Source: Rhizobium sp. NFR03 (GTDB lineage: Bacteria > Pseudomonadota > Alphaproteobacteria > Rhizobiales > Rhizobiaceae). Taken from it: a stretch of DNA of 64,000 nt. The translations under genes were made by a program, and so were the position numbers. Of this stretch, positions 43,634-45,651 are shown piece after piece (position 1 is the stretch's first letter; each line of letters starts with the position of its first letter). The notes beneath the pieces were generated by a model. The model was given only the letters and a program-made list of their open reading frames with translations, searched no databases and was not told where the DNA came from. Location: NCBI RefSeq assembly GCF_900111275.1, contig NZ_FOGR01000003.1, positions 496,001 to 560,000 on the forward strand. The letters are read 5' to 3'.

Positions 43634-45091
43634 CTAGCGCTTGACCTCCCAGGTCGTTACCCGCTCACCGGTGGCCGCGTCCTTGCCATCCTTCAGCTGA
43701 ATGCCTTGCGCGAGAAGCTCATCCCGTATCCGGTCGGCGTCCGCGAAGTTCCGGGCCTTCAGGAGCGCCAGCCGTTCCTCGATCCGCTGGGCTACACCGG
43801 CCCATTTGTCCTCGTCGGCAAGGCTGAGGTCGAGATCCGTCGCCTGCTGGCTCAGGTGCTCGATGTCCTCGAAGCCCATCAGATCCAGAAGCCCGAGAAA
43901 CGCGGCTGCCGCATCCAGATCGCCCTTCACTGCCCCGGCGGCAAGCTGGTTCATGCCGGTGATGACGGGGTAGAGGTTGAGATCGTCAAGAACAGGGCTT
44001 TCAGGTGGAAGGGTCCAGGCGGTCGTTTCCGGACTTTCTGCCAGAAGCGCTGTAACGCGAACCTTCGCATCGGCCCAACGGCGCACAATGCCTTGCGCCT
44101 CTTCCAGCCGCTTGAGGCTGAAATCGATCGGCTGGCGATAATGCGTCATCAGCATGGCGAGGCGCAGGACCTCGCCCGGCCATGTCCGGCCGCCGAAGTT
44201 CTCCGTGTGCAGCAGGTCGTGGATCGTGACGAAGTTGCCGTCCGACTTCGACATCTTGCGGCCTTCGATCTGCACGAAACCGTTATGCATCCAGACGTTT
44301 GCCATATTTGTCGTGCCGTGAGCGCAACGCGATTGGGCGATCTCGTTCTCGTGGTGGGGAAAGATGAGATCGAGCCCGCCGCCGTGAATGTCGAAGGTTT
44401 CGCCGAGATAGCGGTGGCTCATGGCGGAGCACTCGATGTGCCAGCCCGGACGGCCCCGGCCCCATGGGCTTTCCCAGCCGGGCTCGTTGTTGGAGGACAG
44501 CTTCCACAACACGAAATCGCCGGGACTTTTCTTGTGCGCATCGACGGCGATGCGGGCGCCGGCCTGCTGCTCATCGAGATTGCGATGCGAGAGCGCGCCG
44601 TAATCCGCCATCGACGTCGTGTCGAACAGGACCTCGCCAGCGGCAACGTAAGCATGCCCGCGCGTGATCAGCGCCTCTATGATCGTGATCATCTCGGCGA
44701 TGTTCTCGGTCGCTCGCGGCTGGACGGTCGGCTCCAGCGAACCCAGCGCACGTGCATCGTCCACGAACTGCGTCTCGGTCTTCTCCGTGACGGCGCGGAT
44801 CGCCTCGTTCAGCGGCAGATCCGGAAAGTCGCGCAGCGCGCGCGCGTTGATCTTGTCATCGACGTCGGTGATGTTGCGGACATAGGTGACGTTCGTTTCG
44901 CCATAGAGATGGCGCAGCAGGCGGAACAGCACGTCGAACACGATGACCGGGCGCGCATTGCCGATATGTGCGAAGTCGTAAACGGTCGGGCCGCAGACAT
45001 AGAGACGGACATTGCCGGCATCGATGGGCGCGAAATCGGTCTTTTCGCGCGTCAGCGTATTATAGAGCCTCAGTGCCGGCACGTCCGTCAT
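43634..45091 (-). CDS. cysS: Cysteinyl-tRNA synthetase
   Basis: A 485-residue class I synthetase charging tRNA-Cys. The HIGH motif is in [12 protein letters not shown] near residue 38 and [11 protein letters not shown] near 270. Zinc ligands are expected in [19 protein letters not shown] and HHENEIAQS. The C-terminal DALR-type helical region is present. GGAG lies nine bases before the ATG. Its leader contains a Cys-rich small ORF and a segment complementary to this Shine-Dalgarno region (see separate entries). Confidence 0.97.
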
Positions 45092-45096
45092 GCGTA

Positions 45097-45232
45097 TCGT
45101 CTCCCTCTTCAGTGCTTTTTCGTCGTCAGCGTCCCGAATGATGCATCTGTCGGCAAGCCGCCGCAGATCACGCGCGCCGGCCTGCCGGCCTTCGCGTTGT
45201 CATCTTGGTCTTGGGTAAGGAGACGAAACGGA
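45097..45232 (-). promoter_or_regulatory. Complementary segments in the cysS leader (possible SD sequestration)
   Basis: In the cysS transcript, UCGUCUCCUU (45226-45217) can pair with AGGGAGACGA (45106-45097), which contains the cysS Shine-Dalgarno: ten pairs, one of them G-U. Just upstream, UCCGUUU (45232-45226) is the exact complement of AAACGGA (45291-45285) inside the small Cys ORF. The two pairings touch at one base. A GCCGGC-AG-GCCGGC hairpin lies between. No T-run terminator is visible on this strand. Confidence 0.5.
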
Positions 45233-45250
45233 AAGGGCCAGCGACAAGCG

Positions 45251-45295
45251 CTAGCAAATCATCGAGCCGCAGAAAATGCAGGTATCCGTTTTCAT
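45251..45295 (-). CDS. 14-codon Cys-rich leader peptide upstream of cysS
   Basis: ATG-AAA-ACG-GAT-ACC-TGC-... encodes MKTDTCIFCGSMIC, with Cys at 6, 9 and 14, the last codon before TAG. It ends 159 bp upstream of the cysS ATG on the same strand. The ATG lies at the position where transcription should start from the promoter just upstream, so the mRNA would be leaderless, as for the trp leader peptide of Sinorhizobium. Three cysteines in 14 codons directly before the cysteinyl-tRNA synthetase gene is the pattern of an amino-acid attenuator. An in-frame longer ORF upstream exists but runs through the promoter. Confidence 0.55.
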   Translation of the reverse strand: MKTDTCIFCGSMIC

Positions 45296-45301
45296 GGCGG
45301 C

Positions 45302-45330
45302 TTTATCGCTATTACCGCCCCCTTGGTCAA
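45302..45330 (-). promoter_or_regulatory. Probable cysS promoter
   Basis: On the minus strand TTGACC (45330-45325; CTTGAC in the rhizobial -35 form) and GATAAA (45307-45302) are spaced by 17 bp. The predicted start is 45296-45295, at the ATG of the leader peptide. The -35 lies in a perfect 7-bp CCCCCTT/AAGGGGG inverted repeat (45318-45335), which could be an operator or chance. Confidence 0.6.
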
Positions 45331-45335
45331 GGGGG

Positions 45336-45651
45336 TTCACCCTTACGTCTCGAGACTTGGCCACTGGATCGAGGGATCGGATCACGTGGACAGCTCGGTT
45401 GCGCCGCAGCATGAAACCGGTTGCATTGCAGCATGTTTTAGCGCGCAAAATGCTCGCAGGATGGACATGAATTTGTCATGATTGAAACGTTTGAAAGCCG
45501 CAGAATTTCAGGAGATTCGAGCTTGCGGGGACAATGCGAGACGTTCGGATCTCCGGGAACAAACGAGGTGCTGCAGGTTGTAATCGTCGAAAGACGGTTT
45601 CTTCCAAGCGACGCCCGACCCGGGACGGAATCTTAATCAGGAGAGAGTGAC
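45336..45651. other. Intergenic region between cysS promoter and small rhizobial gene
   Basis: 316 bp in which I see no gene. Two overlapping 64-65-codon frames on opposite strands lack recognisable features. The last 50 bp should hold the promoter of the 58-residue protein gene, but no good -35/-10 pair is evident. Confidence 0.4.

Follow-up and report, generated by a model that had tools for sequence, protein, structure and literature searches.

A putative leaderless Cys-codon leader upstream of cysS recurs across Hyphomicrobiales and is a candidate translational attenuator

Several bacterial groups carry short leader open reading frames (ORFs) with Cys codons. According to extracts of the paper describing it (Brewer et al. 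2021, PMC8632094), uORFC-8-2 lies upstream of cysS exclusively in Rhodobacterales, usually carries tandem Cys codons at positions 14 and 15 and has the U run of an intrinsic terminator, and ribosome-mediated attenuation has been proposed for it. For Actinobacteria, including mycobacteria, the excerpted parts of PMC1262725 and PMC4633059 also describe leader ORFs whose Cys codons lie close to the stop; these parts report no conserved terminator hairpin for the Mycobacterium leaders and state that leaderless transcripts are common in mycobacteria.

Here, we analysed the region upstream of cysS in the window, a 64,000-nucleotide stretch of DNA from Rhizobium sp. NFR03, and compared it with loci of the same order and beyond. 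The gene cysS is essential. A sequence-only reading of the window had interpreted this region as a cysteine attenuator, and the results below support that interpretation. The ORF that it described, 14 sense codons with Cys at 6, 9 and 14, is present on the cysS strand (45295-45251), and its CTTGACC-N17-GATAAA promoter reads as TTGACC, 17 nt, GATAAA, 6 nt and ATG, with the ATG 35 nt after the TTGACC box. We consider it likely that the leader belongs to a ribosome-mediated attenuator of cysS that is leaderless, senses Cys-tRNA and acts on translation. The features of the locus are as follows.

43634 to 45091, minus strand: cysS, cysteinyl-tRNA synthetase (Pfam tRNA-synt_1e, E 1.2e-113)
45325 to 45330, minus strand: -35 box TTGACC, read from the sequence; comparable box in 124/140 order sequences
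45302 to 45307, minus strand: -10 box GATAAA, with a 17-nt spacer from the -35 box and 6 nt to the ATG
45251 to 45295, minus strand: putatively leaderless leader ORF MKTDTCIFCGSMIC*, ATG at 45295, TAG ending at 45251
45285 to 45290, minus strand: P1 5' strand AACGGA, inside codons 2-4 (predicted fold and covariation)
45227 to 45232, minus strand: P1 3' strand TCCGTT (predicted fold and covariation)
45249 to 45255, minus strand: P2 5' strand GCTAGCG, overlapping the TAG stop codon (predicted fold and covariation)
45237 to 45243, minus strand: P2 3' strand CGCTGGC (predicted fold and covariation)
45217 to 45226, minus strand: segment complementary to the cysS Shine-Dalgarno (SD), TCGTCTCCTT, with nine Watson-Crick pairs and one G-U pair (window MFE)
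45097 to 45106, minus strand: cysS Shine-Dalgarno region AGGGAGACGA, read from the sequence
45195 to 45204, minus strand: segment 3, GATGACAACG, which may pair alternatively with the P1 3' strand (folds of some relatives)

The 7-nt segment said to pair with codons 2-4 of the ORF was likewise confirmed (TCCGTTT, 45232-45226, complementary to AAACGGA, 45291-45285); it overlaps the SD-pairing segment by one base, and the P1 helix to which it belongs covaries across groups. Pairing of segment 3 with the P1 3' strand, present in the folds of some relatives, is absent from the window's own MFE. The distance from the leader stop to the cysS start is 159 nt in the window, the median of 124 leaders being 93 nt, and a longer TTG-start frame (45251-45448) runs through the leader ORF. 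The -35 box of the window lies inside an inverted repeat, CCCCCTTG/CAAGGGGG (45335-45318), and one to three copies of a CCTTGACC-like unit, spaced 20-22 nt where repeated, stand upstream of the leader in seven genus genomes (for example L003-L006). An Rfam identity of the leader, T-box included, was dropped: covariance models gave no match at the gathering score in the window and eight relatives, the three matches obtained all lying under their gathering scores.

The sequence-only reading had named conservation beforehand as a test on which its proposal could fail; the ORF, its Cys codons, the promoter spacing and the downstream helix are kept across the order. Loci were fetched by CysS protein similarity at order, class and family level, and 60 further order loci were picked among the best matches listed, to spread over families. 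Merging of near-identical loci reduced 182 to 167, and L009 and L152, which have no recognisable CysS motif, were dropped. By a fixed criterion, a leader was an ORF that begins with ATG, spans 9-28 codons and includes Cys; it had to follow a TTGA, TTGC or TTGTC box by 33-40 nt and to leave 90 nt or more between its end and the CysS motif. Such a leader is found in 124/140 order upstream regions, a count of which a few are expected by chance given the shuffled rate (mean 7.8, maximum 13, in 30 rounds of dinucleotide shuffling), and in 4/140 on the opposite strand. Requiring at least two Cys codons leaves 87 order sequences (shuffled mean 2.2, maximum 5). Because 32 of the 140 loci are the window itself or came from searches with leader DNA, the fairer figure is 92/108 distinct order sequences. 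Among the named loci chosen by CysS similarity, with ORFs of up to 31 codons allowed, 72/80 have a leader, or 73/81 once Sinorhizobium meliloti Ak57, found by DNA match, is added; a few of these look doubtful, e.g. L225. The S. meliloti leader reads MKTVICIICRNIIR*. The Ak57 record (CP090106.1, L265) is described as plasmid pSymB, yet is 3,719,350 bp long and carries cysS, and may be the chromosome.

A strict match is missing from 16/140 order sequences, two of which have a variant leader. The leader was not found at the four Bartonella loci (L231, L236, L242, L254) or at the single Roseitalea, Notoacmeibacter, Aureimonas and Ancylobacter loci (L217, L240, L250, L257). DNA searches matched the region in all seven genus genomes (own included), one of them in part, and in 38/297 family genomes; outside the genus, the match mostly extends from near the -10 box to the ORF stop. 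Outside the order, the leader criterion selects 4/27 sequences (shuffled mean 1.1, maximum 3). Three loci outside the order (L076, L081, L082) have ORFs that resemble uORFC-8-2, carry Cys close to their stop (PCRCA, CCCA and CCA) and are flanked by cysS and what seems to be the end of gltX. At some other class loci, cysS follows soon after this same neighbour, which we take to be gltX.

In the genomes searched, the leader is linked exclusively to cysS. The window's own genome holds one copy, its other 39 matches being short, with E 0.025 or worse. A covariance model, R1, matched 97/131 family genomes at one place each and gave no match in the other 34; all 97 have the orientation of cysS and precede the CysS match by 23-219 nt. 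Among 240 class genomes, R1 matched the window and three genomes outside the order, where by eye the match also stands just before cysS.

The distance from the -35 box to the ATG is 36 nt in 64 of the 124 leaders, 35 in 28, 37 in 21, 38 in six and 39 in five, a peak sharpened by our ranking of candidate ORFs by closeness to 36, with ties settled towards 36. Position -1 is C in 107/124 leaders, and columns -12 to -8 are A/T-rich. Support for the earlier claim that the ATG sits at the transcription start comes from geometry only: 113/124 leaders place the ATG 35-37 nt downstream of the -35 box, a spacing that suggests a putatively leaderless cysS transcript.

The Cys content of the leader was also examined by a selection blind to Cys, which took ORFs that are 9-31 codons long and begin 35-37 nt downstream of TTGAC or TTGAT. 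This selection qualified 113/140 sequences, and 112 of the 113 have such an ORF with Cys. Cys makes up 12% of the leader residues (in ORFs chosen for Cys) vs 0.9 and 1.5% in the other frames. Both figures speak against a constitutive upstream ORF that merely dampens or couples cysS translation, its Cys codons being incidental; this explanation draws on the response to Cys being a predicted one, and we find it barely credible. The sole Cys-less exception, L144 (MTFAARIRRSIIIR), has the usual promoter spacing and may reflect decay or a changed signal.

Over 44 groups, a single Cys occurs in 13, the other 31 show 15 spacing patterns and adjacent Cys codons are found in six. Such variable spacing is easier to reconcile with codon sensing than with a metal-binding motif. 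Together with the varying number of Cys residues and Agrobacterium 9-codon forms such as MKTTICTCC, it weighs against the view that the peptide itself matters, either through nascent-chain Cys residues sensing metal or redox state or through action in trans like peTrpL. Cys-X2-Cys is common in the Rhizobium type, and the S. meliloti trp leader peptide acts on a multidrug operon (extracts of PMC7298713); we nevertheless hold a role of the peptide to be very unlikely and retain Cys-codon sensing by the ribosome as the preferred reading. The shortened leaders of Agrobacterium L207 and L233, MKTTICTCC and MRTMICTCC, end in tandem Cys. Cys6 and Cys9 of the window are common to the family's MKTxxCxxC type, and codon 14 in 31 comparable leaders is Arg in 27, Asp in three and Cys in the window only. 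Thus, of the proposal that the Cys codons are the signal, the conserved Cys content over the order stands, and the third Cys codon was rejected as a part of it. Leader Cys codons are TGC in 190 cases and TGT in 38. Ile is the commonest leader residue (26.6% in the 124 order leaders), with ATT for 350/501 Ile codons; it outnumbers Cys, but was set aside as the sensed amino acid as the gene is cysS. ATT-ATT often stands just before the last leader codon, where the window has ATG-ATT (codons 12-13, 45262-45257), a tendency for which we have no explanation.

Two helices of the leader RNA covary across groups. P1 joins ORF nt 1-14 to the stretch 8-62 nt past the stop, P2 is a hairpin at the stop codon, and for both the pairing within a sequence exceeds that between sequences, at 0/20000 permutations over the 44 groups. 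One control pairing was neutral (13618/20000) and two were weaker within than between sequences (19997 and 19994). In an alignment of 53 leaders (A1), chosen for an MKT-like start and leaving out seven of the 60 collected, 90.8% of P1 cells and 94.3% of P2 cells are paired; the covariation score is 0.118 vs 0.062 shuffled and at most 0.049 slid, and pair 9-74 is GC in 47 and CG in six sequences. RNAalifold predicted only P2 on these 53 sequences.

The SD-pairing segment noted earlier is present with its nine Watson-Crick pairs and one G-U pair, but pairing of the SD with the stretch past the leader stop showed no significant covariation across the 44 groups (2532/20000 permutations). The SD did not covary with segment 2 or segment 3 either (4052 and 1604/20000). 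SD sequestration, tested by covariation across groups, was thus not supported, and what speaks for the pairing is its conservation within the genus together with folding. For the alternative pairing of the segment after the stop with segment 3 (helix B), permutations gave 30/20000 (S2xS3) and 4/20000 (P2b x S3). In the alignment, 84.8% of its cells are paired vs 60.8% at a slide of +1, and its covariation score of 0.157 lies under the 0.181 of that slide; by column counts, helix B was judged not specific in the alignment. The S1xS2 permutation test was not used because S2 was picked by its pairing with S1, making the test circular. One of the 44 groups, with an unusual stop-to-start distance, was omitted from the permutations with segments 2 and 3 and from the mask simulation, Cys placement and TTTTT count given below.

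We infer a leaderless transcript, a Cys-tRNA signal, a translational level and an ON direction, which together would work as follows. The first base transcribed would be the A of the leader ATG, leaving a bare 5' end on which the first ribosome would load. With ample Cys-tRNA, this ribosome would reach the stop codon inside P2 and leave, after which, in the predicted fold, P1 takes up the start codons, P2 closes and the SD of cysS is paired. With scarce Cys-tRNA, it would stall at the Cys codons, blocking P1 and then P2. The stall would free the post-stop segment to pair with segment 3, the antisequestor, and this pairing would expose the SD and lead to more synthetase. A bolder version makes the leaderless start codon one strand of the switch, its AUG buried in P1 after one pioneer ribosome, in a terminator-free translational attenuator; in this version, cysS control of this kind would be ancestral in Hyphomicrobiales and would have relatives in other parts of the class. 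Burial of the AUG would allow essentially one Cys-tRNA reading per transcript before cysS translation is set; we regard this version as conceivable but doubtful.

In the mask simulation, the RNA downstream of a ribosome mask was folded and the result averaged over 43 group representatives. The order average of the SD unpaired is 0.32 in the free RNA, rises to 0.50-0.54 with the A site five to one codons before the stop and returns to 0.37 at the stop; shuffled sequences give 0.37-0.39 over those five codons and 0.34-0.39 overall. This predicted opening is classical attenuation logic, with the SD in the terminator's place. In the window, the SD is unpaired at 0.06 in the free RNA, 0.35-0.36 while codons 2-4 are in the A site, 0.52 at codon 11 and 0.01 at Cys6, Cys9, Cys14 and the stop, and three genus relatives behave similarly. 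A stall that switches cysS on is therefore predicted on the order average, not by the window's own fold. Other single leaders vary: the value climbs from 0.22 to about 0.3 in Mesorhizobium, from 0.41 to about 0.6 in Agrobacterium and from 0.25 to 0.44 and 0.61 in L055, hardly changes in Bradyrhizobium, falls from 0.42 to 0.18 at Cys6 and Cys9 of S. meliloti, and in R. leguminosarum is 0.11 free, with 0.22 and 0.09 for the two Cys codons. A claim that the last Cys codon falls in the SD-open range of the simulation was dropped: p was 0.000-0.032 against random codons (masks of 12-18 nt), but 0.022-0.229 by mask length against the last of k random codons, and its placement is at best weakly better than chance. 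The first Cys codon showed no placement effect relative to this range in the 43 representatives. Given the disagreement of single leaders and the weak Cys placement, direction and level of control are what we infer, the level being probably cysS translation.

An intrinsic terminator is not evident from U-run counts and the terminator listing. TTTTT occurs in 0/43 group representatives and past +40 in 7/124 sequences, and the listing for this strand holds the P2 stem only, with CCTTTCCGTT after it. This, and the SD pairing without covariation, would also suit the same Cys-stalling leader acting on transcription via Rho, which would reach the untranslated stretch before cysS except when a stalled ribosome or an alternative fold keeps it out; Rho has been proposed for the terminator-less mycobacterial Cys leaders (extracts of PMC1262725). 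The short distance from leader stop to cysS start (median 93 nt; 159 in the window) leaves little room for Rho, however, and the order-level mask simulation moves the SD, which makes a Rho mechanism unlikely in our view. Under the preferred translational attenuator, the recurrence of the leader across the rhizobial order suggests that it probably tunes the CysS enzyme to cysteine supply.

The element stands before cysS in Sinorhizobium, Rhizobium, Agrobacterium, Mesorhizobium, Bradyrhizobium and Devosia, as a conserved and apparently undescribed candidate control element. If the proposal is true, it would be an amino-acid attenuator, in this case for cysteine, whose conservation spans a bacterial order, and a leaderless one in which access to the start codon would be part of the switch. 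Canestrari 2020 is reportedly the mycobacterial polycysteine paper. Searches of open-access PMC papers yielded no cysS leader in rhizobia, and a term search in the main text of the S. meliloti small-proteome paper gave no mention of cysS. Within this literature, the idea is known and the order-wide, putatively leaderless form appears to be undescribed.

The locus has the short ORF with codons for the regulated gene's amino acid that is typical of attenuators. It shares with uORFC-8-2, as extracts of PMC8632094 describe it, a short Cys-codon ORF directly upstream of an alphaproteobacterial cysS (97/97 model matches). It differs in its order, its leaderless geometry and its mostly separated Cys codons (6, 9 and 14 in the window, in place of a tandem near 14-15), and in having a stop-codon hairpin and the long-range P1, with a terminator U run not evident (TTTTT 0/43; 7/124 past +40). 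The actinobacterial leaders, in the excerpted descriptions, are alike in their Cys-codon ORFs and, in Mycobacterium, in having no conserved terminator hairpin; they belong to another phylum and precede cys operons, cbs, cysA2 and others, not cysS, and these descriptions do not include a stop hairpin or a P1 helix. The trpL attenuator of S. meliloti (extracts of PMC10117765) is leaderless, as is proposed here, likewise has a 14-codon leader ORF and comes from the same bacterial family, but is a tryptophan attenuator of trpE. Finally, leuS and trpS of Streptomyces lividans (extracts of PMC8079986) have leaderless leader ORFs before aminoacyl-tRNA synthetase genes, as proposed here, for other amino acids and in another phylum.
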